Assembly (NCBI GenBank): GCA_011087605.1
Contig: JAALLE010000006.1
Span: 1-64,000 of the forward strand
DNA from: Hyphomicrobiales bacterium
Lineage (GTDB): Bacteria > Pseudomonadota > Alphaproteobacteria > Rhizobiales > Rhizobiaceae
DNA: 64,000 bases
Reading direction: 5' to 3'
Below, piece after piece: positions 484 to 20,280 of this stretch. A program made the position numbers and the translations under genes. The notes beneath the pieces were generated by a model. It ran no database searches, had not been told where the DNA came from, and was given only the letters and a program-made list of their open reading frames with translations. Position 1 is the stretch's first letter. The number at the start of each line of letters is the position of its first letter.

Positions 484-2688
484 TTAAAGTGTAGGAAGGC
501 TGGTCAGAACCTTGCGGTCGACCTTTCCAGGCACTGTCAGCGGCATGTTCTCAATGAAGACCAAATTCTTTGGAATGTAAAAAATCGGACAGATTTCTCC
601 AACACCGGCCTTTAATTCATCACCGCGATTTTCACTGGGATCTTCAGCGACAACATAGGCAGTCAGAACTTTGTTGCCTGCGTTTTCTTCAGCAACCACC
701 ACTACGTCTTCAACTCCAGACTGGGAGCGAATTGCAGCTTCAATTTCTCCCAACTCGATGCGAACACCATTGATCTTAACCTGGAAGTCATTGCGGCCCA
801 TATAGACGATTTCACCATCCGGCATGTAGCGGGCAAGATCTCCGGTCTTGTAAAGCCGCTTGTGCGGTGCTCCGTGAACCGGATTTTCGACAAACCGTTC
901 TTCAGTCAGGTCTTCGCGCGCCCAGTAACCTCGGGCGAGTTGAACACCACCGATATAGAGTTCGCCAGGAACTCCGATCGGTACAGGTTGATTGAGCTCA
1001 TCCAGAATATGAAGGCTGGTATTTGATACCGGCTTACCAATTGGAATGTAATTGCGCTCAGGATTTCTGGGACAATGGTAATAGCTAACATCCACAGCCG
1101 CCTCAGTCGGGCCGTAGAGATTGTGCACTTCAGCAATATTGTTGGATTTGTCGTAGAATTGTTGAACCACATCAAATCCAAGCGCTTCGCCGGAGCAGAA
1201 CAGTTTCTTAATCGGCAATTGATCCAAAGCCGGCGCCATCATGAACAGACGCAGGACGGATGGAACAAAGTGGAGGTGCGTAACCTTCTGATCCTTGATC
1301 AGATGATACAGGTAACCAATCGCCATATGTCCGTCAGGCTCGGCAACGACCAAGGTCGATCCGACACTGAAAGACCACAGAAATTCCCAGACAGAAACAT
1401 CGAATGTATAGGGGGTTTTTTGAAGAATACGGTCCTGGGAGGTGAGACCATATTCTTCATGCATCCACACCACGCGGTTGTAAATCGCACCATGCTCGAC
1501 AATGACGCCTTTGGGTTTGCCGGTCGAGCCCGAGGTATAGATCATGTAGGCAAGTGAATCGGCCTCGATGTTGATGCCCAGATCGCTGGCATCGCCTTCT
1601 GGGTCAATCTCACCATATTCAGGCAATGTCACAACTTCAGCATTCACCTCTTCCAACTGGTCCAACAGATGTTCCTGGGTCAGGACCACCTTTGGCTGAC
1701 AGTCTTCAACAATTTCGGCGATCCGGCCAACCGGATCCTGAGTGTTCAAGGGCACATAGGCACCGCCAGCCTTAAGCGTCGCCCAAAGAGCAATAACCAA
1801 TTCAAAACTGCGATCCAGGCACAGACACACAAATTTATCGCGACCGACGCCCTTGGCGCGCAGGACTCGAGCCAATTGATTTACCCGTGCGTTGAATACT
1901 CCAAATGTCATTTCCTCGTCTTTGTAAACGAGAGCGACTTGATCGGGATTGTCCTTTGCCTGCTGCTCCATTTGAGCAACAAGTCCACCATCATAGGCGT
2001 ATTCTATTTCTGTATCATTCCACTCATGCAATATCAGATTGCGTTCCCGCTCAGACATCAAAGGTTGCTGTGACACGGGCACAGCCAGATCATCGACGAT
2101 GCCTTGTGCCAAGGCGGTTATCCGGTCTGACATGTTGAACACGGCTTCCGCTGAAATCTCGTTGGTGTGCCTCCATTCAACGGATCCGTCATCGCGGCAG
2201 TTCAACCAGACATCAGTCTGCGACAATGGGCTGGCCTGGTTGCCGAAACTCAGTGCCACCGACACAGATTCGCTCAAACCATATTCCCAATTGCTGTCTT
2301 CATTATTGTTCGCAACAGTACGGGAAAGCAGCGCACGGCATAAAAACATGCCGAAAGATTCTTCAGGATGAAGGGTAACAGTGACCGGAATGTAACGACC
2401 GTGACTCAAGGGAGTTCTACGGTCCTGAATAGGAAATACGGCCTCGCCGTTTTCTGAAACCCTGGCAAGATATGCCGCAACAAGCCCGAATGAAATATCG
2501 TTTTTGCGCAAATCAGGAAACAGCTCGGCAAGACACTCAATTAGTTCAACGCTTACCAATGGCGAGCCCTGTTCAAGCAGGCCGCTAAATGCCACCTCAT
2601 GCTTATAAACTTCCAGATCTGGAAGTTTACTCATTTCCCAACCATTCAGTCTTGTTGACGCTTCCAGCGCGACCTTAGGGATCCCCAT
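484..2688 (-). CDS. NRPS-derived amino acid adenylation protein with a partial condensation-domain C-lobe and no carrier domain
   Basis: A-domain motifs YTSGSTGKPKGV, FDVSVWEFLW, NLYGPTEAAVD, YKTGDLARY, VKINGVRIELGEIE, PGKVDRK; N-terminus resembles the C-terminal lobe of a C domain (PLMSERERNLILHEWNDT linker). Confidence 0.93.
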   Translation of the reverse strand: MGIPKVALEASTRLNGWEMSKLPDLEVYKHEVAFSGLLEQGSPLVSVELIECLAELFPDLRKNDISFGLVAAYLARVSENGEAVFPIQDRRTPLSHGRYIPVTVTLHPEESFGMFLCRALLSRTVANNNEDSNWEYGLSESVSVALSFGNQASPLSQTDVWLNCRDDGSVEWRHTNEISAEAVFNMSDRITALAQGIVDDLAVPVSQQPLMSERERNLILHEWNDTEIEYAYDGGLVAQMEQQAKDNPDQVALVYKDEEMTFGVFNARVNQLARVLRAKGVGRDKFVCLCLDRSFELVIALWATLKAGGAYVPLNTQDPVGRIAEIVEDCQPKVVLTQEHLLDQLEEVNAEVVTLPEYGEIDPEGDASDLGINIEADSLAYMIYTSGSTGKPKGVIVEHGAIYNRVVWMHEEYGLTSQDRILQKTPYTFDVSVWEFLWSFSVGSTLVVAEPDGHMAIGYLYHLIKDQKVTHLHFVPSVLRLFMMAPALDQLPIKKLFCSGEALGFDVVQQFYDKSNNIAEVHNLYGPTEAAVDVSYYHCPRNPERNYIPIGKPVSNTSLHILDELNQPVPIGVPGELYIGGVQLARGYWAREDLTEERFVENPVHGAPHKRLYKTGDLARYMPDGEIVYMGRNDFQVKINGVRIELGEIEAAIRSQSGVEDVVVVAEENAGNKVLTAYVVAEDPSENRGDELKAGVGEICPIFYIPKNLVFIENMPLTVPGKVDRKVLTSLPTL

Positions 2689-2837
2689 CGTCTTCTCCTG
2701 CTAGTTTGCTGTGCTTAGGCTTATTTGCCGACACGGTTCTAATTGGAATCAAATTTGACGGGGAAAAACTAACTAAATCTGTTGGGTTATGATGAACAAG
2801 TTATTGGCATTAACTGATGGTAAGGGCCTGTTAAAAC

Positions 2838-3814
2838 TTATCTATTCATTTGATTCGGAAGCGTTAATACATTCTCAGGAAATAGGGCAATCAACGCCAG
2901 TCCGGTGACCAAAAGCGGGAAAAATGGAATTGCCGCAGCGGCAATCTTCAATATGTTCCACCCGTAATACCCTGCAGTACAAAGAGATTAAAACCGACGG
3001 GAGGGCTAATCTGGGACATCTCGACGACAAGAACCACGAATATGAAAAACCGAACCCGATCAGTTTCAACCACTTCCACCATCTGTTTTGGTCTTGATCT
3101 CACCTCATGATGCAGCCCAGCCTCGAGCTTCTGCTGCGCCAGCTGCAAACATCGCAGCCAATTGTTGTTCGGAGATAAGACGGTCAAAGGTACGTTTATT
3201 GACCACGACAATGTTCTTCGGCAACCAGGCCTGAACATCATAGTAGCTGCTGAGATACTCCCAGGCCTTGTTGTTGTACCCGGTTGACGGAGGCGTGACT
3301 ATTGCATCGACACGTCCGGTAGAAAATGCCTGAGCCAATTCGGCAACTTCAACCTGTGTTGGCACAGTGTTTGCCAATTGAGCCAGCCGTTAAGTGGCAG
3401 CATTACTGGCGCGAAATTTCATGCCGGACAAATCGCCGGTCTTTTCGACGGCTGGGCGCTGAATATTCCAAAGTTTCTTGGCGTTCGCGTAGCTATTTGC
3501 AAGAAATGGAACCGAATCCATTCCAGACACCGGATTTTCGTTGGACAACCGCGATAACAAGAATTCACCTATTGGCGCCTGACCACTTCTGGTGGCGTTT
3601 TTGATTTCGACGTTTTTAAAAAGAGATCCAGATGAATGGACTTTGATCGTGATTCCACCATCGGTGGCGCGCTCGAGTTGCCGTCCAAACTCGACATGAT
3701 TCAGCGAACGAAAATTGTTGTCGCCATAAGGAACTGGCATGTTCCACGTGTCGACCAATGCGATCGAACTACCGCTGCCTAGCCCGGCGAAAGCTGCAAT
3801 GCGGCTTTCAACAT
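2838..3814 (-). pseudogene. Decayed TRAP transporter: disrupted DctP plus DctM C-terminal remnant
   Basis: DctP-like fragments (LVDTWNMPVPYG.., AFSTGRVDAIVTPPSTGYNNKAWEY..) split by stops and frameshifts, then DctM C-terminus ISPPVGFNLFVLQGITG / NILKIAAAAIPFFPLLVTGLALIALFPENVLTLPNQMNR in two frames. Confidence 0.85.
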
Positions 3815-3867
3815 GTTGCTGCTTTTGTATCTAATAAGAATTCTCAGGCTGGTAAAAACCGGCCAAA

Positions 3868-4125
3868 TCAGGCTGAAAGACGAACCGGTTCGGTCTCGTC
3901 AAATGATACATTTTTGGCTTCGAGTACGGTTCTCATGTCGCCGAGATTCTGCATGTTCACTACTTCGTTGATGGCAAAGCGAATATTGTATGCCGTTTCT
4001 ACGGCCAGAATCACCTCAATGTGGCGCAGAGAATCCCAGTTTGGTGTATTCATGGCATTGGATTTTTCACTCAGTGTATCTGCTTCAACGTTTAGAATTC
4101 CGGCAATGATATCATAAAGTTTCAT
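3868..4125 (-). CDS. Acyl/peptidyl carrier protein
   Basis: 85 aa; phosphopantetheine-type motif WDSLRHIEVILAVE. Confidence 0.85.
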   Translation of the reverse strand: MKLYDIIAGILNVEADTLSEKSNAMNTPNWDSLRHIEVILAVETAYNIRFAINEVVNMQNLGDMRTVLEAKNVSFDETEPVRLSA

Positions 4126-4220
4126 GGTGTTCCCCGAGTCCAGTTAGTGGCTGTTCAGTCGTAAAAATATGGTTGAAGACTTGCCCAACCGATTGTTGGG
4201 AAATTAGACCAACAAAGTGT

Positions 4221-5738
4221 TTAGAAATCGTAATAGAGGAAGGAAGAGTCCGACCCGATATTGGAGAATGCAAAGACCAGAAGAGCGGCGACCATGAACG
4301 CCCATCCAGCGTTTGGTTTCCACTGAATCAAGTTTGTCAGCTTGCTCATGACTTGTGGTTTTGCATCAGACACAATCCAATGACGCGACAGTATTTCTTG
4401 AGTGTTCGGCACGCACAGGACAATGATGCCCAGTGGTAAGATAAACGCCCAGGCTTCGATCAACACCAGGCGCACTGGTTCGCCCATTCCAGCCGGAACC
4501 AGGGAAGATGCGCCCCACATAGTGGCCAGCATTGTACCCGCGGTAGTCATGTCAGGTGAACGGAATATCACCAGGCCACTAACGACAACCGACATGGTCA
4601 ACAACCAATTGCTGATCACGCCCAGCTTAGGCAGGTTAAATTGTTTCCACCCGTTGTTTATCGCAATCGCAATCCCATGAAGCAGTCCATAAAATACGAA
4701 GGTCCAACCTGAACCATGCCAAATACCCGCAACCAACATGGTGAAAATAATCGGCCAGCCACCAGCAAAAACGAACTTTGGGAATGCCGGCATTTTTTTC
4801 TGCATTGCCTTGCGCATGCCGTTCATGGCCATTGGCGAAAAGACATAGTTGGTAAAGAACCGGGTCATGGTCATATGCCAGCGTTGCCAGAAGTCTGAGA
4901 TGCTTGTCGCCTTGAACGGTGAATTGAAGTTGAGCGGCAATTTCAGACCAAATATGGTTCCAAGCCCAATTGCCATATCCGAATAGCCGGAAAAGTCGAA
5001 ATAGAGTTGCAGCGTGTAGGCGAGCGAACCGGTCCAGGCAGTAACCGGGTCCACAACACCACCGGCAGCCACTCCATCAAATGCCAAATTGGCAAACGGA
5101 GCGAGGGAATCAGCAAACACAACTTTCTTGAACAAGCCCATGGCAAAGATAGAAAGTCCAAGCGCGATGCGTTGACCGTCCAGTGCCCGGTCAGTGCGGT
5201 TTTCCATCTGGTCGAATATTTCCTTCTGCATGACCAGTGGACCTGCAGTCACATAGGGAAAAAACGTCGCGAAGGCGGTGTATTTGACAATCGAACGTTG
5301 CTCGGTTCGACCACCATGAGCTTCAATCAGATAACCAATCTGCACAAATGTGTAGAAGGAGATGCCGATCGGTAAAATGATCGACAGATGATCAAATCCT
5401 GAACCGGTGATTTGATTGGTGATGTCGATAAAGAAATTTGTGTATTTGAAATAACCCAGGGCAAAAAGGTTGCCCAATATTCCCCCGATCAGAAGCTTGT
5501 TGGAAGCTTTTTCTGCTCCGTATGAGCGCGTCAAAACGCTGCCGATGACAAAGTTGGAAATCACTGAAACCAGCAAGATTGCCAACAGTTTCCAGCTCAA
5601 TTGAGCGTAAAAGATCAACGATGCGGCAGCCAGTACGCCAAAGGCATTCGACCACCCCTTGAAATGTTGCACCAGTGCAAATGCGATGAACGTGCAGGGC
5701 AAGAACAGGACGAGAAACTCGTAAGAATTAAATGGCAT
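4221..5738 (-). CDS. MBOAT family O-acyltransferase (DltB/AlgI-like)
   Basis: Multi-TM protein with FWQRWHMTMTRFF and GIWHGSGWTFVFYGLLHG motifs. Confidence 0.93.
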   Translation of the reverse strand: MPFNSYEFLVLFLPCTFIAFALVQHFKGWSNAFGVLAAASLIFYAQLSWKLLAILLVSVISNFVIGSVLTRSYGAEKASNKLLIGGILGNLFALGYFKYTNFFIDITNQITGSGFDHLSIILPIGISFYTFVQIGYLIEAHGGRTEQRSIVKYTAFATFFPYVTAGPLVMQKEIFDQMENRTDRALDGQRIALGLSIFAMGLFKKVVFADSLAPFANLAFDGVAAGGVVDPVTAWTGSLAYTLQLYFDFSGYSDMAIGLGTIFGLKLPLNFNSPFKATSISDFWQRWHMTMTRFFTNYVFSPMAMNGMRKAMQKKMPAFPKFVFAGGWPIIFTMLVAGIWHGSGWTFVFYGLLHGIAIAINNGWKQFNLPKLGVISNWLLTMSVVVSGLVIFRSPDMTTAGTMLATMWGASSLVPAGMGEPVRLVLIEAWAFILPLGIIVLCVPNTQEILSRHWIVSDAKPQVMSKLTNLIQWKPNAGWAFMVAALLVFAFSNIGSDSSFLYYDF

Positions 5739-5755
5739 GACAGTATTCCCGACTT

Positions 5756-8131
5756 CTAAAGCGCGCCGCGCAATTTAAATTCATCACTCTGCAAGCGGTA
5801 CTGCATAAGCAACATTCCCAAACATGCTGGATTCCCATGTTCTGCATCAATGTATTGTTTGGCCCTACAGCCAACATCCTGAGGTGAAAAACCACCTACC
5901 AGACCAAAGCCGTATTTTGCCGCCCAATCCTTGGTGAGATCCTGGATCTTCTTGAGACCAACCATGTATTCGGTGCCCTGAACTGCGTCCCAGAATATTG
6001 GATTGAATTGAGGGTGAGCCAACGTGACTTTCACGCCCTTGTCCTTCAAATATTCAAACAGGAATTCCATATGGGCGACGCCCTTGGGATCGATTTTAGG
6101 TGGAGAGTTCTTGCTGGCTTCTGCAAAGGAGAGAGCTTCGTTGCGAGCTCGTTCCTGCGAGAACAGGCGCTTATGCTCACCGGACCAAAGAATGGATCCA
6201 CCCGGCAACAGTGTGTCGAGACCTTCAAAGTTTCTCTCATCTGTCGCATGCGGCATAACCGGAGCAGTCAGATGTCTTGTTCCGTGTGTTTTAAGCAGGG
6301 AGAAATTGGCCAGTTCTCGCCATGTCTGAACCGGTAAGGTCTCCAGCATTGAATGCGCCTTAAACCCAGTCCGTTCAGCAAACCGGCGATAATATTTAAT
6401 ACCGGGCAACCACAGGAAGTCTGTGCGATCCTTAACCGGTGTCAGCAGCTTGTCGCGAATGGTAATGATCAATTCCGGAGGCAGCCTTCCGTGGCGTTCG
6501 TAAATTTCGACCATCGCCATCATGTCCTCGTAATAATCACGATGAACGTGGCTGTTATAAACGTTGACGCCTGACAAAAGGCTTACATGAGCCTCTTGCC
6601 AATGACTCGCTCCAAGCACGCCGACATCCGGGGTTGTCGTCATTCGCTTGATTGTTTCGTTGCGAAGATCCCGAATGTTGATGTTGAGATCGAAGACGCC
6701 GTAGTTTCTGCCGTCCGTGTGGGCTTGAGTCACATCTGAAATCATATTTTGATCAAACAGCATGGGGGCAAAGTATTTGTTGCCCTGCCAAATCGCGGCG
6801 ATTCCCATAATAAACAGAGCCAGTGTTGCAATTACAAACCGACCACCGGCCCGACCTTCTTGGGTGTCTGCTTTTGCATCCTCATCATAGTGACCTTCAA
6901 GCCGGTTCAAGAGTTCTCGGGCGTCTTCACTGGCAACATCTGCCTGTGTTTCAAATTGTGGCTGCTCATATTGTTCTTGAACTTCAGCAGCTTGTGCTGA
7001 CATGGTGCTGCCACCTACGGCCATGCCCGACGACACAGCCACACCAGTGGACGAGATGACAGCTCTGGCAGATGTACTGATGGCAGGCCCCGCGGGCCCA
7101 GTTCCCGTCGGGTTGACGTCAGAACCTGGATCTTCGACATAGTCGGCTTCAGGATCCAGCGCATGGGTGGAATCTGCATCTTTGTACAATCGGACGTTTC
7201 GCCCAAATACGAGCTCAAACAAGAGCGGTGCAAAAAACATTGGGATTTGTGAAGCGCCGACATAAACGGCCAGGTTGGAATCATTTGCGTAGCCGACCAA
7301 TCCGAAAGTCAGCCCGATGTTGCGGAAGCTGGCAAGGACACTGGCCGTCATGGCAATGTTGTAGCCCAAATGAGCCATTGCCACTCTCAATACCAGCGCA
7401 ACCGATATCGTGGTCATGATCGAAACCGCAATATAAAACAATACTCTTTGGCTGTCTGTCTGCAGGGCGACGACGACCGGAGCTTCCAGTGCGAAACAAA
7501 AAATCACCAATGACAGAACCGAGCCCCAGCGGCCGATTTGGATGGAACGTTCTCTTGATTTTGGTGTCCAGTTGCGTGCCCACTGACGGATCAACAGGAA
7601 GATGCCAAGCGGGACGATCATGAGGGCAAACAATCGGATCGCAAAATTGACGAAGTCAAACTGGAAATGACCATCATGGAGAAGGCTGAAGCCAACAAAG
7701 ATAGAAATCGGTGCGACAAGAGTGGATACCACAACAGTCTGAACGGCCAGTTTTTGGTCCAACCCCATCAAATGAACCAGGGTTGGTGAGGCAAACAGTG
7801 ACCCACTCGTCAAGGTTACCATTATGAAGTAGACAATCTGCGAATCCAGTTTGAATATCCAGCCGGTTGTCGCCACCAACCCGGGCAGCAAGAGTTGCTG
7901 GAGACCGACCAACGGTAATACAGCGGGGTGGAGTTTTGTGAATATTTGGTTTTCGTAGTTCACGTAAGGCAGCAGCGAAAACACCATCACACAAAACAGC
8001 GATGGCATCAGGAAGCCGGTAAAACCGCTTGCAAACCCTTCAAATTGAAATGCAACCACCACTCCCAATGCAAGCACGAGTGCTGCGAGGAATTTCTCGT
8101 CTTCAATACGCATATTTACCGCTCGTCCCAT
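5756..8131 (-). CDS. Fusion: N-terminal BART-superfamily-like (BASS/AEC-like) multi-TM domain + linker + TM + SGNH/DltD-like extracytoplasmic domain
   Basis: About 10 hydrophobic segments, low-complexity linker, TM RFVIATLALFIMGIAAIW, then GVLGASHWQEA (GxSH-like block) domain; alternative start at 8113. Confidence 0.75.
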   Translation of the reverse strand: MGRAVNMRIEDEKFLAALVLALGVVVAFQFEGFASGFTGFLMPSLFCVMVFSLLPYVNYENQIFTKLHPAVLPLVGLQQLLLPGLVATTGWIFKLDSQIVYFIMVTLTSGSLFASPTLVHLMGLDQKLAVQTVVVSTLVAPISIFVGFSLLHDGHFQFDFVNFAIRLFALMIVPLGIFLLIRQWARNWTPKSRERSIQIGRWGSVLSLVIFCFALEAPVVVALQTDSQRVLFYIAVSIMTTISVALVLRVAMAHLGYNIAMTASVLASFRNIGLTFGLVGYANDSNLAVYVGASQIPMFFAPLLFELVFGRNVRLYKDADSTHALDPEADYVEDPGSDVNPTGTGPAGPAISTSARAVISSTGVAVSSGMAVGGSTMSAQAAEVQEQYEQPQFETQADVASEDARELLNRLEGHYDEDAKADTQEGRAGGRFVIATLALFIMGIAAIWQGNKYFAPMLFDQNMISDVTQAHTDGRNYGVFDLNINIRDLRNETIKRMTTTPDVGVLGASHWQEAHVSLLSGVNVYNSHVHRDYYEDMMAMVEIYERHGRLPPELIITIRDKLLTPVKDRTDFLWLPGIKYYRRFAERTGFKAHSMLETLPVQTWRELANFSLLKTHGTRHLTAPVMPHATDERNFEGLDTLLPGGSILWSGEHKRLFSQERARNEALSFAEASKNSPPKIDPKGVAHMEFLFEYLKDKGVKVTLAHPQFNPIFWDAVQGTEYMVGLKKIQDLTKDWAAKYGFGLVGGFSPQDVGCRAKQYIDAEHGNPACLGMLLMQYRLQSDEFKLRGAL

Positions 8132-8311: not shown

Positions 8312-10306
8312 ATGGGGCAAGGAATCCAAAACGCTCTAAAGAAAAGTGTTGATGATGAACTCGGTGCATCGCAGCACGATTTTATAGATTCGTCTGAACT
8401 CATGGAAGCAGCCAATGTAGGATTGGCGGTTTTTAGTTCCGACCTGACCCTTTTAACAGCAAATGACCGCTACTATGAATTGTGCGGTTATTCCCGTGAC
8501 GAAATTCGTCCCGGTATTTCACTTAGCGACCTCATCAAGTTTTCACTCGAGAAGCGGAATTTGGACCCGACTGAAATTGAAACCACCATTTCCACAAGTC
8601 TGCGACGACTAAAGGGAACAGAGAGCCATCAATTTCGCTTTGAAGTAGAAAATGGCGGTTATATTTCCATAACCAGGCGCAAGGCCGGCCAAGGCAAGAT
8701 GTTTGAGACCGTTCAGGAACTGACAGGCGCTGAGCCGATTGCCCATGGATCCGATCAGCTCGGGAAGCTGGCAGATCTAGCAAGAATGCGATTGGCGTTT
8801 GCGTTGGAAGGCATGGCAGATGGCTTTGCTCTGTACGACGATCAAGACCGGTTGGTAAATTACAACAAAAAGTATGTGGAACTGAATCCCCACATTGCCG
8901 ATATGATCATGCCCGGCAGCCGATATGAGGACATGTTGAGGGAAGGTGTGCGCCGTAAAGGTTTTGATCTTCATGGTATGGAACCGGAAGCGTATATTGA
9001 ATGGCGGCTGGAACAACATCTCAATCCGGGCGAACCCTACATATCCCAGCTGACTGACGGTCGCTGGATTCGACTCAACGACCATAAAACAGACGATGGA
9101 GGTATCGTCAGCGTCCGTGCAGACATTTCAGATCTCAAAGCCCATGAGGTGGAAAACAAACGTATTTCCGGTGACCTGAGCCAAGCCAGTTCCAGGCTCG
9201 ATGAAGCACTCAACAATATGGTGCAGGGGCTTTGCATGTTTGATGCGGATCAAAAGCTCATTCTATGCAACAAGCAGTATCTCACCATGTACGGCTTTTC
9301 CGATGAGGTGGTAAAACCCGGAATACATATGCCGGATATCATGCGCTACAGTATCTCTCTTGGAAATTATCGGGACGAAGATGCGCAGCTGGCGTTGGAA
9401 AACCGGAGCAAATCTCGAAATCTCAGCGAACGAACCACCATCAAGCAATATCTCAAAGACGGGCGGGTAATCGCTGTACTCAACGAACCCATGTCCTCAG
9501 GAGGCACAATTGCAACCTATCAAGACATTTCTACACTGGAGCAGCATGAGGCTCGACTGGTCGCTTATAATAAGAAGCTGGAAAGTTCTAACCGCGAACT
9601 CCAGGATTTCGCCTATGTAGCGTCCCACGATCTGCAGGAACCACTGAGGAAAATTGAAACCTTTGGTGACAGGTTGGTTAGAAAACATGGCGAGCTCTTG
9701 CCCGAAGACGGCCAGATGTATCTTGACCGCATGCAGAACGCCGCAGGTAGAATGCGCTTGTTAATCAACGATTTGCTGGGGTACTCCCGCGTCACTACCA
9801 AAGCCAAACCCTTTGTTGAAGTTAACTTGCAAAAAGTTCTGGATGGGGTGTTGTCGGATATTCAAATGCGCTTGGAGGAAACCCGGGGCGTTGTAGAATC
9901 TTCGGACCTGCCAATAATTCCGGCTGACAACACGCAGATGCGACAGTTGCTTCAGAACTTAATCAGCAACGCCTTGAAATTTTGTCGTCCCGACGTTGCT
10001 CCGATTGTAAAAATCAGCGCTGAAAAAGCAGTGATTCATACCGAAAACGGGATCCCCCGTGATATTTGGCGCCTCTGTGTCGCCGACAACGGTATCGGTT
10101 TTGACAACCAGTATAAAAATCAGATTTTCGCTATATTCCAACGCCTTCATGGCCGTCTGGAATACGAGGGAACCGGTATCGGATTGGCCACCTGTCGAAA
10201 AATTGTGGAACGCCATCACGGAACCATTGATGCAAATGGCGTTCCTGGCGAAGGCGCGACTTTCACCATTGAATTACCCGCTGAACAAGAACAATCAGAG
10301 GAATGA
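8312..10306 (+). CDS. Multi-PAS sensor histidine kinase
   Basis: PAS-like repeats; HisKA FAYVASHDLQEPLRKIETF; HATPase NLISNALKFCRP, GTGIGLATCRKIVERHHG. Confidence 0.93.
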   Translation: MGQGIQNALKKSVDDELGASQHDFIDSSELMEAANVGLAVFSSDLTLLTANDRYYELCGYSRDEIRPGISLSDLIKFSLEKRNLDPTEIETTISTSLRRLKGTESHQFRFEVENGGYISITRRKAGQGKMFETVQELTGAEPIAHGSDQLGKLADLARMRLAFALEGMADGFALYDDQDRLVNYNKKYVELNPHIADMIMPGSRYEDMLREGVRRKGFDLHGMEPEAYIEWRLEQHLNPGEPYISQLTDGRWIRLNDHKTDDGGIVSVRADISDLKAHEVENKRISGDLSQASSRLDEALNNMVQGLCMFDADQKLILCNKQYLTMYGFSDEVVKPGIHMPDIMRYSISLGNYRDEDAQLALENRSKSRNLSERTTIKQYLKDGRVIAVLNEPMSSGGTIATYQDISTLEQHEARLVAYNKKLESSNRELQDFAYVASHDLQEPLRKIETFGDRLVRKHGELLPEDGQMYLDRMQNAAGRMRLLINDLLGYSRVTTKAKPFVEVNLQKVLDGVLSDIQMRLEETRGVVESSDLPIIPADNTQMRQLLQNLISNALKFCRPDVAPIVKISAEKAVIHTENGIPRDIWRLCVADNGIGFDNQYKNQIFAIFQRLHGRLEYEGTGIGLATCRKIVERHHGTIDANGVPGEGATFTIELPAEQEQSEE

Positions 10307-10310
10307 AACC

Positions 10311-10763
10311 ATGCTTAATGCCACTCCAATTAGAATTCTGGTCGCAGATGATGATGCAGATGACCGCATGCTGATAGGCGACGCCTTTGAAGAGGCTTGC
10401 CTGAAAAATCCCGTCGATTTTGTTGAAGACGGCCTGGAGCTTCTTGAATATCTGAAACACGAAGGCAAATTCGCCGACCTTGCAGAAGATATTCGTCCCG
10501 GCATCATCCTGCTTGACTTGAACATGCCTCGCATGGACGGTCGAACAGCCCTTCAGGAAATTCGCAATGATCCGGAACTGCGCAACATTCCCATTGTTGT
10601 CCTTACGACGTCCAAATCTGAAGAAGACATTTTGCGAACCTACGACTTGGGAGTGAATTCCTTTATCACAAAACCAGTTACATTTGATGGTTTGGTCAAA
10701 GTCGTCCAAATCCTGAATCAATACTGGGTCGAGATTGTTGCACTGCCAGCCAACATTGATTGA
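10311..10763 (+). CDS. Single-domain response regulator (Rcp1/CheY-like)
   Basis: ILVADDDADDRMLIGDAF, ILLDLNMPRMDGRTAL, VLTTSKSEEDI, FITKPV; start chosen at ATG 10311 inside longer ORF. Confidence 0.93.
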   Translation: MLNATPIRILVADDDADDRMLIGDAFEEACLKNPVDFVEDGLELLEYLKHEGKFADLAEDIRPGIILLDLNMPRMDGRTALQEIRNDPELRNIPIVVLTTSKSEEDILRTYDLGVNSFITKPVTFDGLVKVVQILNQYWVEIVALPANID

Positions 10764-10881: not shown

Positions 10882-12912
10882 ATGTTTGGGCACGGATTAA
10901 AAGTACTGGTTTTAGACGACGACGACGATTGTTTCCTGATCTGCGAAACAATCTCTGACATCGAAGGCGGTTCTTATGAGGTAAAGACTGCCCATACCCC
11001 AGAAAATGGCCTGGAACTTATTCGAAAGAATGCGTTCCATGCTGTTCTTTGTGACTACCGACTTGGAGCCACAAGCGGCATTGACTTCATCAAGCTGGTT
11101 CGCGGACAGGGATACGACTTACCCATCATCTTGTTGACCGGAATGGAAGACAGCTCAACGGACAATAAAGCGCTGGAAGCGGGAGCCGCAGATTTCATCA
11201 GCAAATCAGCTCTTTCGTCGGCCATTGTGGACCGAGCTATCAGATACGCTGTTGCCAATGCTGAGCGTCAACGGTTGCTGTCTACGGTTTTAACCAGTGT
11301 AGATGCTGCAGTTTGCGTTCTGGACAACAAAAGAGTTCCGATTCTCTGGAATCCAAGTTTTGCCGGCTTTGCAGAAGTGCAGGGTAAGTTTGACAATGAC
11401 GATCCAATCAGCGCCTTCGCCAGCAGGCTGCTAAGCGCTGAAATGGTCCATTCGGTGGGAGACAGAACTCTTGAAAAGAGAATTTCCAACCTGCCAGATG
11501 AAGGGTTGGTAATCACCCTCCATGATGTCACAGAACATGTTGAGGCGTTGAGAGAACGGGAGCGAGCCGAAAGTCGCGCCGCCCATCTGGCCAATCACTG
11601 CTCACTCACCGGCCTGCCCAACAGAATGGCATTTGCTGAACGAATTGATAAAGAGATTCAAAGAGCAAGATCCAACGGTACCGAATTTTACCTGATGAAC
11701 CTCGACCTGAACCGGTTCAAAGAAATTAACGACGTATATGGTCACAATGTTGGCGATCAACTTCTCAAACTGGTCTCACAACGCTTTGTCAGTTGCTTAA
11801 AGGAAGGTGATTATCTGGCTCGATTGGGCGGCGACGAATTTGTTGCCATCCAAACCAAAAATCCCGACAAAGACGAAATTCCTGCACTTGCATTGCGGTT
11901 TTCTGACTCGGTTGAAAGCCCATTTGAGATCAGCGGCAGCATTGTGAGAACCGGTGTCAGCGTTGGTGTTGCCTCTTTTCCCAGCCACGGAGCAGACGCC
12001 CAGGCATTGCTTTCTAATGCTGACATCGCCATGTATCGCGCCAAGACCGAGCCCAAATGCGGTGTGCATGCCTACAACTCGAAACTCGATCAAACAATAC
12101 GCGAGCGACGCCTGATTGCCAGTGAGCTGAAAAGCGCCGTTGAAAACGAGTCCCTGGAGGTACATTTTCAACCGCAAGCCTGTGTGAAAACGGGTAGAAT
12201 CAGTGGTTTTGAATCTCTATCTCGGTGGAATCATCCAACATTTGGCCAGATTTCACCTGACGTTTTCATCCCCATTTCCGAAGACAACGGACTGATTAAC
12301 GAAATAGGTCGCAGCACATTGCAGTGGTCATGTGAGCTTGCAATGCAATGGCCAGAACCGGTCAATGTAAGCGTCAATATATCAGCATTACAGATCCGCT
12401 TCACGGACATTGTGAGCTTGGTGCGAGACACGTTGTTTCAAACCGGCCTGCCATCCAGTCGGTTGGAACTTGAGGTCACTGAAAGTGTTTTGTTTGATGA
12501 TTTTGATTATGCCATGCACGTCCTGCGCGGCATAAGAAATCTTGGCGTTTCCCTTGCGATGGATGACTTTGGAACAGGTTATTCTTCCCTGTCGTCGATT
12601 ATTTCTTTTCCTTTCAACAAGCTGAAAATTGATCGCTCATTTATTATGGAACTCCATAAGCAGGAACGGCTGGCAACTGTCACTAAAGCCATCATTGGAC
12701 TTGGGCATAATCTGGATTTGAAGATAATTGCCGAAGGTGTTGAGACGATAGACCATGTGAATTTCCTGAAAGCCCAGGGGTGCGACGAAATGCAAGGCTT
12801 CTTGCTGGGTAAGGCCATGCCACAGGAAAAAGTGCTGGAATATCTGAAAACCCCGGTCTTGGACCTTTCCACCCATGCGGATTACGTTGACGAAAAAAGA
12901 CGTGCTTCATAA
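10882..12912 (+). CDS. Response regulator receiver-GGDEF-EAL c-di-GMP turnover protein
   Basis: REC LVLDDDDDCFLI; RLGGDEFVAI; EAL-type FESLSRW, EVTESVLF, DDFGTGYSSL, KIDRSF, AEGVE. Confidence 0.95.
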   Translation: MFGHGLKVLVLDDDDDCFLICETISDIEGGSYEVKTAHTPENGLELIRKNAFHAVLCDYRLGATSGIDFIKLVRGQGYDLPIILLTGMEDSSTDNKALEAGAADFISKSALSSAIVDRAIRYAVANAERQRLLSTVLTSVDAAVCVLDNKRVPILWNPSFAGFAEVQGKFDNDDPISAFASRLLSAEMVHSVGDRTLEKRISNLPDEGLVITLHDVTEHVEALRERERAESRAAHLANHCSLTGLPNRMAFAERIDKEIQRARSNGTEFYLMNLDLNRFKEINDVYGHNVGDQLLKLVSQRFVSCLKEGDYLARLGGDEFVAIQTKNPDKDEIPALALRFSDSVESPFEISGSIVRTGVSVGVASFPSHGADAQALLSNADIAMYRAKTEPKCGVHAYNSKLDQTIRERRLIASELKSAVENESLEVHFQPQACVKTGRISGFESLSRWNHPTFGQISPDVFIPISEDNGLINEIGRSTLQWSCELAMQWPEPVNVSVNISALQIRFTDIVSLVRDTLFQTGLPSSRLELEVTESVLFDDFDYAMHVLRGIRNLGVSLAMDDFGTGYSSLSSIISFPFNKLKIDRSFIMELHKQERLATVTKAIIGLGHNLDLKIIAEGVETIDHVNFLKAQGCDEMQGFLLGKAMPQEKVLEYLKTPVLDLSTHADYVDEKRRAS

Positions 12913-13164: not shown

Positions 13165-14349
13165 TTGGAAAGAACGCCGAACAAGCAACGACCGGGTGTT
13201 GAAAAACCACCGTTGGCTCCAAAAAACCCCCGGTTTTCTTCGGGGCCTTGTACAAAGCGTCCCGGTTGGACCCTGGGTCACCTGAGTTCTGGTTGTTTGG
13301 GCCGCTCTCACCGATCGGCTGGCGGGAAGGCAAAACTTCAACAGTCAATCGACCTGACCAGAGACGTGCTGCAAGTGCCTGACGGCTACCGAATTGGGAT
13401 TGTTCCAGCTTCCGATACAGGCGCATTTGAGATGGCCATGTGGTCAATGTTGGGCGCTCGGCCTGTAACAATGTTGGCATGGGAAAGTTTTGGCGCCGGA
13501 TGGGCATCGGATGTGAAGAACCAGTTGCAACTTCAGGACACGGTCTTTGTATCTGCAGATTACGGCAAGTTACCCGATCTCAACGCCATCGATTTCAATA
13601 GCGATGTTTGTTTTACCTGGAATGGGACCACATCAGGCGTTCGGGTTCCTGATGGTGAGTTCATCCCATCTGATCGGCAAGGCCTGACCCTGTGTGACGC
13701 TACTTCGGCCGCCTTCGCGCAATACCTGCCTTTTGAAAAGCTCGATGTTGTGACCTATTCGTGGCAGAAAGTACTAGGCGGAGAAGGCGGACATGGAGTG
13801 ATAATCCTGTCTCCGAGAGCGGTGGAGCGACTCGAAAACCATATTCCCGCATGGCCGCTGCCAAAAATCTTTCGACTGACCAAAAATGGCAAACTGATCG
13901 AAGGCATCTTTTCGGGAGCCACAATCAACACGCCGTCCATGTTGTGCGTCGAAGACTATATTGATGCTCTGAGCTGGGCCCAGTCGATTGGAGGTCTTGA
14001 TGGACTTCGCGCCAGGGCCGATGAAAATTTCGCGGAACTGAGCTCGTGGGTCGATCAAACCGACTGGATAGATTTTCTGGCAGAAGACCCGGCAACCCGT
14101 TCAAATACGTCGGTTTGCTTGAAGATTACCGATGCCGGCGTAGCTGCCCAGGAGGTCACCATGCAAAATGCATTTGTCAAAAACATCACCAAACTGCTCG
14201 ATGATGAAAATGCTGCATATGATATTGGCGGCTACCGTGATGCACCTCCCGGCCTGCGAATCTGGACCGGCGCAACAGTAGAGACATCCGACATAAAATC
14301 TCTGACGGCATGGCTCGATTGGGCCTTCGCTGTCACCAAGGCCGCTTAA
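13165..14349 (+). CDS. serC: Phosphoserine aminotransferase
   Basis: [62 protein letters not shown]; start appears to be TTG with upstream AGGGAG. Confidence 0.95.
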
Positions 14350-14400
14350 CCAAAATCAATCTCAACACACAACTCCCGCACTTTGACGAAAGAAGTATCC

Positions 14401-16002
14401 ATGACCGACAGAAAACCACGCGTTCTCGTATCAGATGCCCTCTCCGCAACCGCCGTACAGGTGTTCAAGGACAATGGCTGTGACGTTGATTTCGAACCGA
14501 CTTTGGGAAAGGACAAAGAAAAACTGTTGGCCAGGATCGGCGATTATGACGGATTGGCTATCCGTTCAGCGACCAAAGCCAATGACCAGCTGATTGAAGC
14601 CGCGACCAATCTGAAAGTGATTGGGCGGGCCGGTATTGGCGTCGATAATGTTGATCTGAAGGCTGCTTCCCGCCGCGGCATTATTGTCATGAATACGCCT
14701 TTCGGCAATTCGATCACCACGGCGGAACATGCTTTGTCGATGATGATGGCGGTTGCCCGTCAGATTCCGTCCGCAAACGCTTCGACCCAGGCTGGCAAGT
14801 GGGAAAAGTCAAAGTTTATGGGTGTTGAGCTGACAGGTAAAACGCTGGGTCTCATAGGAGCCGGCAATATCGGATCTATCGTGGCTGATCGCGCCATTGG
14901 CATGAAAATGCGTGTCGTCGCTTTTGACCCGTTTTTGTCCGAAGACCGTGCCCGGAAAATCGGAGTTGAGAAAGTTGAATTGAACGATCTTCTGTCGCGC
15001 GCAGACTTCATTTCCCTGCACACCCCGCTGACAGACAAGACCCGCAACATGATTGATGCCGAGGCGATTGAACGAATGAAGGACGGTGTGCGGATTATCA
15101 ACTGCGCACGCGGCGGGCTCATCGTTGAGACCGATTTGGCCAAGGCCATCGAAACAGGCAAAGTCGCTGGTGCGGCCATTGATGTGTTTGAAGTCGAACC
15201 GGCAACCGACAGCGTCTTGTTTGGTTTGCCGAACGTAGTGTGTACTCCGCATTTGGGCGCCGCCACATCCGAGGCTCAGGAAAACGTTGCTCTGCAGGTT
15301 GCGGAGCAGATGTCCGCCTATCTAACTCGCGGGGCAGTCACCAATGCGCTCAACATGCCGTCCATATCTGCAGAAGAAGCACCACTCCTGACGCCATTTG
15401 TTAAACTGGCCGACACGTTGGGTAGTTTCGTTGGCCAGGTAACCGATGATCCGATTCGCAAGGTAGAGATTCTTTATGATGGCCATGTCGCTTCAATGAA
15501 CACTAGTGCGCTATCAAGCGCTGTTCTTGCTGGTTTGCTACGGTCTCAGGTCTCAGATGTGAACATGGTTTCTGCCCCCGTTATGGCCAGCGAGAGGGGC
15601 ATGCAGCTTCTCGAAATGACCAGGGAAAAATCAGGCGTATTTGATGGGTATATTCAATTGAATGTCGTCACCAATCACATCACCCGATCAATCGCCGGCA
15701 CGGTGTTTTCGGATGGTAAACCGCGCTTTATTCAGATCAAGGGTGTCAATATGGAAGCAGAAGCTGGCGAGCACATGCTGTATACGACGAATCGTGATGT
15801 TCCTGGAATTGTTGGGAAACTGGGCGGAATGTTTGCCGAGTCCGAGATCAATATCGCAAACTTCTATCTTGGCAGAAACCATGCTGGTGGAGACGCAATT
15901 GCGCTGATTCAACTTGACCGACCCGCGCCAGCCGAGTTTTTGAGATTGTTGGACGACGCGCCAGAAATTGAATCGGCAAAACCCTTGGAATTCACTGTTT
16001 AG
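14401..16002 (+). CDS. serA: D-3-phosphoglycerate dehydrogenase
   Basis: Rossmann GLIGAGNIGSIVADRA, NCARGGLIVE, C-terminal ACT-like region; directly downstream of serC. Confidence 0.96.
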   Translation: MTDRKPRVLVSDALSATAVQVFKDNGCDVDFEPTLGKDKEKLLARIGDYDGLAIRSATKANDQLIEAATNLKVIGRAGIGVDNVDLKAASRRGIIVMNTPFGNSITTAEHALSMMMAVARQIPSANASTQAGKWEKSKFMGVELTGKTLGLIGAGNIGSIVADRAIGMKMRVVAFDPFLSEDRARKIGVEKVELNDLLSRADFISLHTPLTDKTRNMIDAEAIERMKDGVRIINCARGGLIVETDLAKAIETGKVAGAAIDVFEVEPATDSVLFGLPNVVCTPHLGAATSEAQENVALQVAEQMSAYLTRGAVTNALNMPSISAEEAPLLTPFVKLADTLGSFVGQVTDDPIRKVEILYDGHVASMNTSALSSAVLAGLLRSQVSDVNMVSAPVMASERGMQLLEMTREKSGVFDGYIQLNVVTNHITRSIAGTVFSDGKPRFIQIKGVNMEAEAGEHMLYTTNRDVPGIVGKLGGMFAESEINIANFYLGRNHAGGDAIALIQLDRPAPAEFLRLLDDAPEIESAKPLEFTV

Positions 16003-16531: not shown

Positions 16532-18628
16532 ATGCAATCACTTCCAGGCTTCCGAATAGCGGTCGATGTCGGCGGCACTTTTACAGACACCGTTTTGGTG
16601 GATGCAAAGAATCAAATTCTGGCATCTTGCAAGACGCCGACTACTCCAGAAAATCCAACCATGGGCGCGATGGAAGGTGTGCGACGCGTGCTGAGCGAAA
16701 GCGGCGTCGCGATACCCGATATACGCAATTTTGTTCATGGAACGACGTTGGCGACGAATGCCCTTATCGAACGGCGTGGGGCGCGAACCGCAGTCACCAC
16801 CACCGACGGTTTTCGGGATATTCTGGAAATTGCCTATGAACGCCGCTACAGCCAATACGACATTAATCTGTCAAAACCAGATCTGATAGTTCCGCGGCGA
16901 CGATGCTTTACAATTTCCGAACGGATGCTGGCCGACGGGACAGTTCACGTCCCTCTGGACACAACCGACATTGCCAAGCTGTTGGCGCAGATAGATGAAT
17001 GTGGTGCGGAAGCGATCGCAATCTGCTTCCTGCATTCCTATACAAACGGGACTCATGAGCGCCAGTTGTGTCAGATTCTGCAGGCTGAGCGACCAAACCT
17101 TGCGCTATCCCTTTCCTGCGAAATAAGTCCGGAAGCGCGTGAGTTTGAACGCCTGTGTACCGCTGTGGCCAACGCCTATGTGCAGCCGATTATGGCTCAT
17201 TATCTGATTGATCTTCAATCCACACTTCAAACCGAAGGTCTAATCTGCCCCATTATGATGATGACATCCGGCGGCGGAATGACCACTCTTGAAACAGCGG
17301 CACAACATCCAATCAGACTGGTTGAATCCGGCCCGGCTGGCGGCGCTCTGCTTGCTGCACGCATTGCTGAGAGTCTGGAACAGCGTTCTGTTTTGTCATT
17401 TGATATGGGTGGCACAACGGCCAAGTTGTGCCTGATAGATGACTATAAGCCGCAAACTTCCCGAAAATTTGAAATATCCCGCGCTGAGCGGTTCATAAAG
17501 GGCAGCGGCATGCCGGTCCGCATTCCAGTTATTGAAATGATCGAAATAGGTGCTGGCGGCGGTTCCATTGCATCGGTTGACCGCTTGGGCCGCATTGGGG
17601 TGGGGCCAGAATCTGCTGGTAGCGAGCCGGGACCGGCTGCGTTCGCCAAAGGAGGGACGCATCCGACAGTGACAGACGCAGATGTTGTGACGGGTTTCAT
17701 TGAGCCGGGATTATTTGCAGAAGGTCGGTTGCAAATTGATCTGGATGCCGCCCGTTCGGCGTTGGCCCAGGTTGGCACATCGATTGGTCTGGATGAGACA
17801 GCCGCAGCAATCGGTGTCAGCGAAATTGTCGATGAAAATATGGCCAGCGCGGGCCGCACCCACGCTGTTGAAGCTGGTAAAGATATCACTGGCCGTACAA
17901 TGATCGCTTTTGGAGGCAATGGCCCCCTGCATGCTACCCGCGTTGCCCGCCGGGCTCGGGTCAGCCGTATCATCGTACCACTCAACCCGGGCGTTGGGTC
18001 AGCTGTCGGTTTCCTGTTTGCCCCTGTTGCGTTTGAGATTGTTCGCAGTCGTTACACGCGGTTAGATCAACTTGATGTTGACGAAATAAATTCCTTTTTT
18101 GATCAGCTGACGAACGAAGCACGAAGCGTCGTAAAATTGGCTGCCTCGCATGGCGAACTTAGCACCACGCGAATTGCCTTCATGCGGTATCACGGTCAAG
18201 GCCATGAAATCGAAATTGAATTGCCGGATCGCAATCTGATCAAACGCGATATTTCGGAATTGGTGAGCGCATTCGAAGTAGAATACAGCAGACAGTTCTC
18301 CAGAGCAGTGCCGGGAATGTCGATAGAAGTATTGAACTGGGCGGTGACCGTTTCGACACCTCCTATTCCAACAGATCAGGCCAGTGATGTGTCTTCGGTT
18401 CAACCAATCCAGGTCACAGCAACAAAATCTGTCATTTGCGACGTCAGTGGTGGTGCGATCGAAGCAGCTGTCTTCATGCGGGACACGCTAAATGTTGGTG
18501 ACCAGATAGCAGGCCCGGCCCTGATCATCGAACCACAGACGACAACACTCGTCAGTGCCGACTTTGATGCGCAGGTGCTTGCAGATTTTTCGATACTTCT
18601 AACAAAAAAGAGTGGAGCAGAAACATGA
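16532..18628 (+). CDS. Hydantoinase/oxoprolinase family protein, HyuA-type
   Basis: IAVDVGGTFTDTVLVD, HGTTLATNALIERRGARTA, SFDMGGTTAK, IEIGAGGGSIA. Confidence 0.95.
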   Translation: MQSLPGFRIAVDVGGTFTDTVLVDAKNQILASCKTPTTPENPTMGAMEGVRRVLSESGVAIPDIRNFVHGTTLATNALIERRGARTAVTTTDGFRDILEIAYERRYSQYDINLSKPDLIVPRRRCFTISERMLADGTVHVPLDTTDIAKLLAQIDECGAEAIAICFLHSYTNGTHERQLCQILQAERPNLALSLSCEISPEAREFERLCTAVANAYVQPIMAHYLIDLQSTLQTEGLICPIMMMTSGGGMTTLETAAQHPIRLVESGPAGGALLAARIAESLEQRSVLSFDMGGTTAKLCLIDDYKPQTSRKFEISRAERFIKGSGMPVRIPVIEMIEIGAGGGSIASVDRLGRIGVGPESAGSEPGPAAFAKGGTHPTVTDADVVTGFIEPGLFAEGRLQIDLDAARSALAQVGTSIGLDETAAAIGVSEIVDENMASAGRTHAVEAGKDITGRTMIAFGGNGPLHATRVARRARVSRIIVPLNPGVGSAVGFLFAPVAFEIVRSRYTRLDQLDVDEINSFFDQLTNEARSVVKLAASHGELSTTRIAFMRYHGQGHEIEIELPDRNLIKRDISELVSAFEVEYSRQFSRAVPGMSIEVLNWAVTVSTPPIPTDQASDVSSVQPIQVTATKSVICDVSGGAIEAAVFMRDTLNVGDQIAGPALIIEPQTTTLVSADFDAQVLADFSILLTKKSGAET

Positions 18629-20280
18629 ATACCGTTTCGAACACCCGCTTGCAGGTCATGTGGAACCGTCTGTTATCAGTCGTGGAGGAACAAGGGCAGG
18701 CACTAATTCGGGCGGCCTTTAGCCCGATTGTGCGTGAATGTGGTGATATTTCCGCTGGTATATTTGACGTTAAGGGCCGAATGATTGCTCAGGCCGTCAC
18801 GGGAACGCCGGGACACATAAATACCATGGCCGAAGCGGTCATGACGTTGCGCAAACACTTCCCGATTGGTTCAATGCGGCCAGGCGATATTTACCTGACC
18901 AACGATCCCTGGATTGCTTCGGGCCACCTCAATGATTTCCTGCTGTTGATGCCCGTCTTCTATCAAGATTCGGTCATTGGATTCACTTCCTGCACCTCTC
19001 ATCTGGTTGATTTGGGTGGCCAAGGAATGGGCCCTGAAGGGAGCGATGTATTCGATGAGGGTCTGCGCATACCACTTTGCAAACTGCTGGACAAAGGCGA
19101 GATCAATCAACTTCTGCTCGAAATCGTCAAAGCAAATTCACGCGAACCAATTGCAAATGAAGGGGACATCTATGCGTTGATTGCCTGTTGCGAATCGGGT
19201 GCGAAGCGGCTGGTCGAGATGATGGATGAGTTCGGCATTGTCGACCTCGATACGCTTTCAAACTACATCATCGATACGTCGCGACGCGGGACTTATGACG
19301 CGATTTCTGATGTTCCCAAGGGTGTGTGGACGAGTACGCTCCGTGTTGATGGTTATGAGAAAGAGATCGAACTTAAAGCCAAACTGACAGTTGATGAAAA
19401 CTCGATGGTCCTTGATTTTGCAGGCACATCTGACTGTTCACAAAAGGGCATCAATGTCCCGTTGAACTATGCAACGGCTTATTCTGTTTTTGCTCTTCGA
19501 TGCATCATCGGGCCGGATATTCCAAACAATGCGGGTTCTCTGGAGCCGTTTATTGTCAAAGCGCCAAAGGGCTGCATTCTCAATGCACAGCCTCCTTCTC
19601 CCGTTGCCATGCGTCATACATTGGGACAGATGACGCCAGATTTGGTTTACGGCTGCCTTCATCAGGCTTTGCCCGGCAAGGTTCCAGCAGAAGGGGCCTC
19701 GTGCATGTACGATCTACCGATGCGCAGTGCGCCAGAAGTTGCCCAGAGGGGTGGAACGGTCTTCGCCCTTGAACCGGCCCACAATGGTGGGACAGGAGCA
19801 CGCCCCACAAAAGACGGATTGTCGGCAACGGCATTTCCCAGCGGCGTTTGGGGAAGCCAGGTTGAAATTACAGAAGCAAGCGTGCCTGTGATTATCAGGT
19901 CTCGTGAATTGCGGCGCGACAGTGGTGGTGCCGGCACCTTCCGCGGTGGATTGGGGCAGCGCATCGAGTTGCAATCGTCCAATGATCAACCGTTCGGTGT
20001 GTTTTTGTCTGTTGAGCGAATAAAGCACCCTGCAATGGGTCGTGATGGCGGATTGCCCGGTGCTCCGGGTCGGGTTCGGCTGGATGGTGGGACGGATCTC
20101 CCCGGTAAAGGAGAAGTTCGAGTGGCGCCAAACCAAACGTTGATTTTTGAAACTCCAGGTGGCGGGGGCTACGGGCCACCGGACAAGCGTGGACCTGACG
20201 CGATCGCTTCAGACATTGCAGAGGATTTTGTAAGTTTTGAAGTCGCACGCGACGTTTACGGGTGGGAGGAGGATAAATGA
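18625..20280 (+). CDS. Hydantoinase B/oxoprolinase family protein, HyuB-type
   Basis: GDIYLTNDPWIASGHLNDF, LDFAGTSDCSQKGINVPLNYA, GGGGYG; 4-bp overlap with previous gene. Confidence 0.95.
   Translation: MNTVSNTRLQVMWNRLLSVVEEQGQALIRAAFSPIVRECGDISAGIFDVKGRMIAQAVTGTPGHINTMAEAVMTLRKHFPIGSMRPGDIYLTNDPWIASGHLNDFLLLMPVFYQDSVIGFTSCTSHLVDLGGQGMGPEGSDVFDEGLRIPLCKLLDKGEINQLLLEIVKANSREPIANEGDIYALIACCESGAKRLVEMMDEFGIVDLDTLSNYIIDTSRRGTYDAISDVPKGVWTSTLRVDGYEKEIELKAKLTVDENSMVLDFAGTSDCSQKGINVPLNYATAYSVFALRCIIGPDIPNNAGSLEPFIVKAPKGCILNAQPPSPVAMRHTLGQMTPDLVYGCLHQALPGKVPAEGASCMYDLPMRSAPEVAQRGGTVFALEPAHNGGTGARPTKDGLSATAFPSGVWGSQVEITEASVPVIIRSRELRRDSGGAGTFRGGLGQRIELQSSNDQPFGVFLSVERIKHPAMGRDGGLPGAPGRVRLDGGTDLPGKGEVRVAPNQTLIFETPGGGGYGPPDKRGPDAIASDIAEDFVSFEVARDVYGWEEDK

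Follow-up and report, generated by a model that had tools for sequence, protein, structure and literature searches.

A proposed carrier-protein-dependent, Dlt-like MBOAT-SGNH cassette with alternative activating enzymes and L-serine as its predicted cargo

A stretch of 64,000 nucleotides from a Hyphomicrobiales bacterium (contig JAALLE010000006.1; hereafter the window) carries genes for all four functional classes of the D-alanylation (Dlt) pathway, which raises the question of whether they form a Dlt system, another kind of transmembrane acylation pathway or a set of unrelated neighbours. An earlier note on this DNA had placed the four classes on one strand in compact order. All of the genes were found there, on the minus strand and in that order. 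A gene for a BART-SGNH fusion protein of 791 amino acids (5756-8131) is separated by 17 bp from that of an MBOAT acyltransferase (505 amino acids, 4221-5738), which is followed after 95 bp by the gene for an acyl carrier protein (ACP; 85 amino acids, 3868-4125). Compactness did not hold for the gene of the stand-alone, NRPS-derived adenylation protein (734 amino acids, 484-2688), which lies about 1.2 kb from the ACP gene and, in the genome of one relative, on another contig. The gap is occupied by the relic of a TRAP transporter (about 2841-3794, minus strand), recognised from Pfam fragments and by tblastn with an intact Roseibium TRAP, in which DctP residues 34-298 are joined to the last 80 or so residues of DctM and DctQ is missing. 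Roseibium locus L047 has a complete transporter at this position. A role for TRAP in the mechanism was set aside, the transporter being a relic in the window and patchy in other loci. The adenylation gene may have its own promoter.

A divergent PAS histidine kinase (8312-10306; Pfam) and a single-domain response regulator (10311-10763) are encoded on the plus strand and are conserved neighbours, present at 22 and 14 of the 25 loci described below, several of which are interrupted by contig ends. The kinase is likely to be a regulator of the cassette. Directly 3' of this pair the window encodes a REC-GGDEF-EAL protein (10882-12912). Elsewhere in the window, hydantoinases A and B, an aminotransferase, MmgE/PrpD and a 2-hydroxyacid dehydrogenase (16532-24452) are likely to constitute a catabolic operon.

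No family match was obtained for the fusion protein in Pfam or NCBIfam. Sequence searches of Pfam, NCBIfam and the PDB with its SGNH domain gave nothing useful, and that domain was placed only by the structure model. The AlphaFold2 model (mean pLDDT 82.9) exhibited a helical membrane domain (residues ~1-310), a disordered linker (315-402), one long transmembrane helix and a periplasmic alpha/beta SGNH domain. Foldseek matched the membrane domain to the bacterial bile-acid transporter ASBT (7cyg) with a TM-score of 0.79 by target length, and a profile of the domain and its relatives matched ASBT_NM with an E-value of 7.8e-8. This profile match is independent of Foldseek and agrees with it and with the model, bearing out the proposed BART/SGNH fusion; membership of the BART superfamily, characterised by the bile-acid-symporter fold, is met. 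The C-terminal domain matched an SGNH sialate O-acetylesterase (TMt ~0.64) and, more weakly, DltD. Its catalytic residues Ser509 (6605-6607), Asp762 (5846-5848) and His765 (5837-5839; all minus strand) are invariant across aligned fused and unfused homologues, and the serine in GxS, the DxxH and the fold together meet membership of the SGNH fold. Absence of these residues from all homologues would have counted as a refutation of the original proposal. Fusion of the BART domain is seen in the nearest relatives of the window, whereas L058, L060 and L111 encode the domain in its own gene immediately upstream, and five further loci encode it nearby. Its role is a guess: it probably anchors the SGNH domain and might also transport the acceptor or act as a sensor.

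The MBOAT (Pfam PF03062, 9e-20) contains the histidine of the WHGxGW motif at residue 341 (4716-4718), conserved in 25 MBOATs, and terminates in FLYYDF, of which Tyr502 is encoded at 4233-4235. All 25 homologues carried the C-terminal motif F-(L/V)-Y-Y-x-(F/Y), in which Phe500 and Tyr502 do not vary and the last residue is either Phe or Tyr. A motif of the FxYxxF type in DltX and PatA serves as an acyl shuttle, its invariant tyrosine carrying the acyl group from the MBOAT to the SGNH protein (PMC12148441). The PatA/AlgI-type feature, a catalytic histidine with an in-cis C-terminal Tyr hexapeptide, is met by the MBOAT of the window. Dlt relies on a carrier protein and has the motif on DltX, a protein of its own, whereas other MBOAT-SGNH pathways have the motif in cis, lack a carrier and evidently use acyl-CoA (PMC12148441). 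The present cassette has both a carrier protein and an in-cis motif. In Caballeronia NK8 the MBOAT homologue is split into three ORFs (L108:6001-7582).

Matches of the ACP to Pfam (PP-binding) fell below the cut-off, and in NCBIfam only generic acyl carrier models were returned, all likewise below their cut-offs. The phosphopantetheine serine, Ser32 (4030-4032), lies in the motif NWDSLRH, which is conserved in the family, and the ACP gene was present in every cassette not interrupted by a contig end.

The adenylation protein exceeded the cut-off of TIGR01733 (440.7 against 317.4 bits), and the adenylation core and code expected of an NRPS are met. A functional condensation domain and a PCP in cis are not, as no HHxxxD motif and no PCP were found in the protein, which ends after the A domain. 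Judged from its sequence, the N-terminal remnant is the inactive C-terminal part of a condensation domain. Without a PCP, the protein needs a carrier in trans. The suggested derivation of the activator from an NRPS module is thus supported, but this activator is the minority form among relatives.

Scanning of genome contigs with an SGNH alignment yielded 25 loci, nearly all alphaproteobacterial, together with two Nonomuraea-type actinomycetes. The cassette of SGNH, MBOAT, activator and ACP genes was conserved, and its SGNH-MBOAT-ACP core lies together in relatives; rare co-localisation had been named in advance as grounds for abandoning the proposal. A search from the side of the ligase described below recovered the cassette at loci of the SGNH scan and at one missed locus, L111. 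Among the neighbours of these loci, inspected for conserved genes that would indicate the acceptor, only the kinase and response regulator were widely recurrent, plus the separate BART protein where it is unfused; no further conserved biosynthetic genes were found in the cassette.

At 17 loci the activator is a class II ligase of roughly 400 amino acids rather than a piece of an NRPS. Its gene lies between the MBOAT and ACP genes, and the protein is related to the amino acid:[carrier protein] (aa:CP) ligase BLL0957 (PDB 3mey, 1e-31 to 9e-33) and to type-2 seryl-tRNA synthetase (SerRS). The Zn site, Cys219/Glu247/Cys370, does not vary among 14 full-length ligases and lines up with that of the solved BLL0957. 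The NCBIfam equivalog NF005479 was not met (163.5 of 357 bits), and the score against the type-2 SerRS model was nearly equal (155.9 of 611 bits). The ligase is rare: among 386 genomes of the class, one contained it at E 1e-60. A 2022 review gives the function of the known aa:CP ligases as unknown (PMC9437257).

The adenylation protein, at 57% identity or more, was found in the window, in L044, in Roseibium L047 and, on another contig, in the genome of L049, the cassette of which lacks a ligase; in L044 the adenylation gene is convergent. No ligase was detected anywhere in the genome of the window, including as a remnant in the window, or in the other three genomes with the adenylation protein, while two control genomes did yield the ligase. 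Conversely, the adenylation protein was absent from the 18 other cassette genomes searched (17 with the ligase and one cut by a contig end), where only ordinary NRPS matches at 32-37% were obtained. The activators are therefore mutually exclusive, the adenylation protein occurring in four genomes and the ligase in 17 with no overlap. On the MBOAT tree, the two activator states require about four changes, at least three of which are forced for the group with the adenylation protein by well-supported branches. In L046, sister to Roseibium, the catalytic core of the ligase is deleted in frame, leaving residues 1-116 and 352-402 (L046:10654-11151), as would be expected of a loss in progress. The adenylation protein was not found in the L046 genome, where an incomplete assembly could hide a replacement. 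The same distribution would result if the adenylation gene had been passed from one lineage to another; in both cases one enzyme substitutes for the other, and in the window the NRPS-derived enzyme takes the place of the SerRS-like aa:CP ligase.

Other loaders were also observed. In Nonomuraea (L039:6896-12847; also L065 and L066) the SGNH, MBOAT and ACP genes are followed by that of a protein of ~1000 amino acids with a cyclization/condensation-like domain, an adenylation domain and a degenerate carrier domain. The adenylation code is DLYNLSLIW, which we take to be of the Cys type; the cargo is on that assumption not fixed across the wider family. An FkbH-type (HAD-IIIC) loader accompanies an ACP, an MBOAT and an adjacent SGNH-like gene at L040:5775-10628 and L109:5980-11016 (Rhodobacteraceae SC52, Sinorhizobium meliloti pSymB). 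The MBOATs at these loci end in FIYFNF or FLYQGF, and the gene sets apparently work through a carrier in like manner, with a cargo of the glyceryl type. This layout suggests more generally that carrier-dependent MBOAT-SGNH pairs are supplied by loaders that can be exchanged for one another.

The specificity code of the adenylation protein in the window, L044 and L047, DVWHFSLVD plus the A10 lysine (DVWHFSLVDK), is identical to that of Escherichia coli EntF, which activates L-serine. For its extraction we relied on a GrsA reference segment assumed to be correct; the A10 lysine was read from the GK(V/I)(D/N)RK motif and the EntF sequence was retrieved. The ligase gives a similar indication. The residue preceding its conserved SxNxH is glycine, as in type-2 SerRS, whereas it is Met or Leu in 24 BLL0957-type (Gly-type) ligases, and its motif-2 loop lacks the two-residue deletion of the latter. 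In Streptomyces NBC_00557 (L110:3692-8513) a full-length homologue of the ligase is encoded with an ACP, a 3-hydroxyacyl-CoA-type dehydrogenase, an aminoacyl-PCP-type dehydrogenase and an acyltransferase. This is the gene set for aminomalonyl-ACP, which requires a serine loader at the position of the ligase. ZmaJ, the loader in aminomalonyl-ACP formation, is a serine enzyme (PMC6395733), and the Streptomyces homologue in the ZmaJ position suggests an aminoacyl-tRNA-synthetase-like seryl-ACP loader in natural product synthesis. Weak support comes from the serine biosynthesis genes serC/serA, found close to the cassette in four loci; they are located at 13165-16002 in the window, and serA or serC/serA also accompany the cassette in L041/L067, L045 and L046. 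On sequence evidence alone, the cargo is most likely L-serine and not D-alanine.

Taken together, these data suggest a carrier-protein-dependent transmembrane aminoacylation cassette, Dlt-like in operation and most likely moving L-serine, a reading to which we assign a probability of about 0.72. The observed gene content, gene order and conservation, the fold of the fusion protein, the complementarity of the activators and the identity of the code lead to the following inferred route. The adenylation protein would form seryl-AMP and load the phosphopantetheine of the ACP, as inferred from code and gene set; in most relatives the SerRS-like ligase would do the loading. By inference from the mechanism of PatA and DltX, seryl-ACP would deliver its seryl group to the MBOAT at the cytoplasmic face, and the MBOAT would place it on Tyr502 of its own FLYYDF. 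Likewise presumed are the onward transfer to the SGNH domain in the periplasm, at Ser509, the esterification of an acceptor outside the cytoplasm (a glycan, lipid or small molecule, none of them singled out) and any part played by the BART domain. The sequence of activation, carrier loading, MBOAT, SGNH and an outside acceptor put forward in the earlier note remains the best-supported reading, its biochemical steps and acceptor being inferred. It is refined here in that the NRPS-type activator is a minority form, the predicted cargo is L-serine instead of D-alanine and the shuttle tyrosine motif resides on the MBOAT. Counting against it are the failure of any conserved neighbour to name the acceptor, the relic of ~1.2 kb before the adenylation gene, the ACP scores below cut-off, the Cys-type code of Nonomuraea and the lack of an intact activator in L046.

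The same distance from the ACP gene, together with the convergent orientation in L044 and the separate contig in the L049 genome, could be taken to mean that the adenylation gene is an unrelated downstream neighbour and that the real cassette is an acyl-ACP-dependent MBOAT-SGNH system moving a fatty or other acyl group. A chance neighbour was rejected given that the adenylation protein and the aa:CP ligase strictly complement each other from genome to genome, and with the ligase gene lying between those of the MBOAT and ACP in relatives and an adenylation protein adjoining the ACP in Nonomuraea, this explanation is considered highly improbable. If the activator does belong to the cassette, the same machinery might still carry glycine, alanine or D-alanine and so resemble systems that D-alanylate or glycylate a polymer of the envelope. 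Gly or Ala is the substrate of the aa:CP ligases that have been characterised (PMC5370406), and the DltA model was among the matches of the adenylation protein (290 bits). Its cut-off was missed, however, the EntF serine code is identical in the window, L044 and L047, and the pocket glycine of the ligase is that of SerRS, unlike the Gly-type ligases; a different amino acid is thus unlikely.

A small natural-product pathway has more in its favour. In such a pathway a secreted small molecule would be decorated or released by means of seryl-ACP, tailored by the MBOAT and SGNH proteins and exported by the BART domain, and no envelope polymer would be modified. The NRPS ancestry of the loader, the BART-fold transporter domain fused or encoded nearby and the occurrence of a ligase homologue within a Streptomyces natural-product cluster are consistent with this. 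Against it, the cassette conserves no other biosynthetic genes, and the characterised Tyr-motif MBOAT-SGNH pairs modify envelope or exported polysaccharides (PMC12148441), leaving it possible but doubtful.

The preferred reading, L-serine transfer by a Dlt-like cassette, has a wider form that we consider reasonably probable, namely that this is a dedicated transmembrane serylation pathway giving aa:CP ligases a physiological role, that the ligase and the NRPS-derived enzyme replaced each other several times, and that the MBOAT combines a carrier-protein donor with an in-cis Tyr shuttle. A ligase subfamily locked into an MBOAT-SGNH cassette provides a testable role for aa:CP ligases, the export of an amino acid to the cell surface, and the recurrent swap with an adenylation protein of readable code provides an independent forecast that the cargo is L-serine. 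The combination of carrier and in-cis motif would extend the general MBOAT-SGNH model, which assigns a carrier to Dlt and acyl-CoA to MBOATs with the motif in cis (PMC12148441). Prior description elsewhere is not excluded, since preprints and most subscription journals were not covered. If the reading is true, a seryl ester would equip a Gram-negative surface with a cationic amine, like D-alanine in Gram-positive bacteria.

Membership of Dlt itself (DltA-DltC-DltB-DltX-DltD) can be rejected, since none of its models was met. The adenylation protein scored 290.6 bits against the DltA equivalog TIGR01734 (cut-off 559.85) and the MBOAT, at 505 amino acids with an extra C-terminal part, 184.8 bits against the DltB equivalog TIGR04091 (cut-off 375). 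No DltC model was among the NCBIfam matches of the ACP, the SGNH domain matched DltD in neither Pfam nor NCBIfam and resembles it at the level of fold only, and the motif is located at the C-terminal end of the MBOAT in all 25 homologues instead of residing on a separate DltX microprotein. Dlt and the cassette share an adenylate-forming loader, a separate carrier, an MBOAT, an FxYxxF shuttle motif and an SGNH transferase. Unlike Dlt, the loader is an NRPS-derived protein of the Ser type or a class II ligase resembling an aminoacyl-tRNA synthetase, the shuttle motif is fused to the MBOAT and the SGNH domain to one with the bile-acid-transporter fold, no teichoic acid is expected in the host and the predicted cargo is L-serine. 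An MBOAT with an in-cis C-terminal Tyr hexapeptide and an SGNH partner is also found in PatA/PatB and AlgI-type O-acetylation (PMC12148441), but those systems use acyl-CoA without a carrier, whereas the cassette has a dedicated ACP and loader, its donor being inferred. The ligase of relatives is, like the BLL0957 type, a class II, SerRS-derived enzyme with a Cys/Glu/Cys Zn site and a carrier protein encoded alongside; it differs in its longer N-terminus, its equivalog score below cut-off, its SerRS-like pocket residue and its confinement to an MBOAT/SGNH cassette. With EntF-type NRPS modules the adenylation protein shares an A domain with the same ten code residues and, at its N-terminus, the remnant of a condensation domain, but it lacks an active condensation motif, PCP and TE and is inferred to serve an ACP in trans. 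The closest precedent for this step, itself inferred here, is the pairing of ZmaJ and ZmaH, a serine adenylation enzyme and a separate ACP that yield seryl-ACP (PMC6395733); the cassette is without the dehydrogenases of that system, and its seryl-ACP would meet an MBOAT instead of a PKS acyltransferase.
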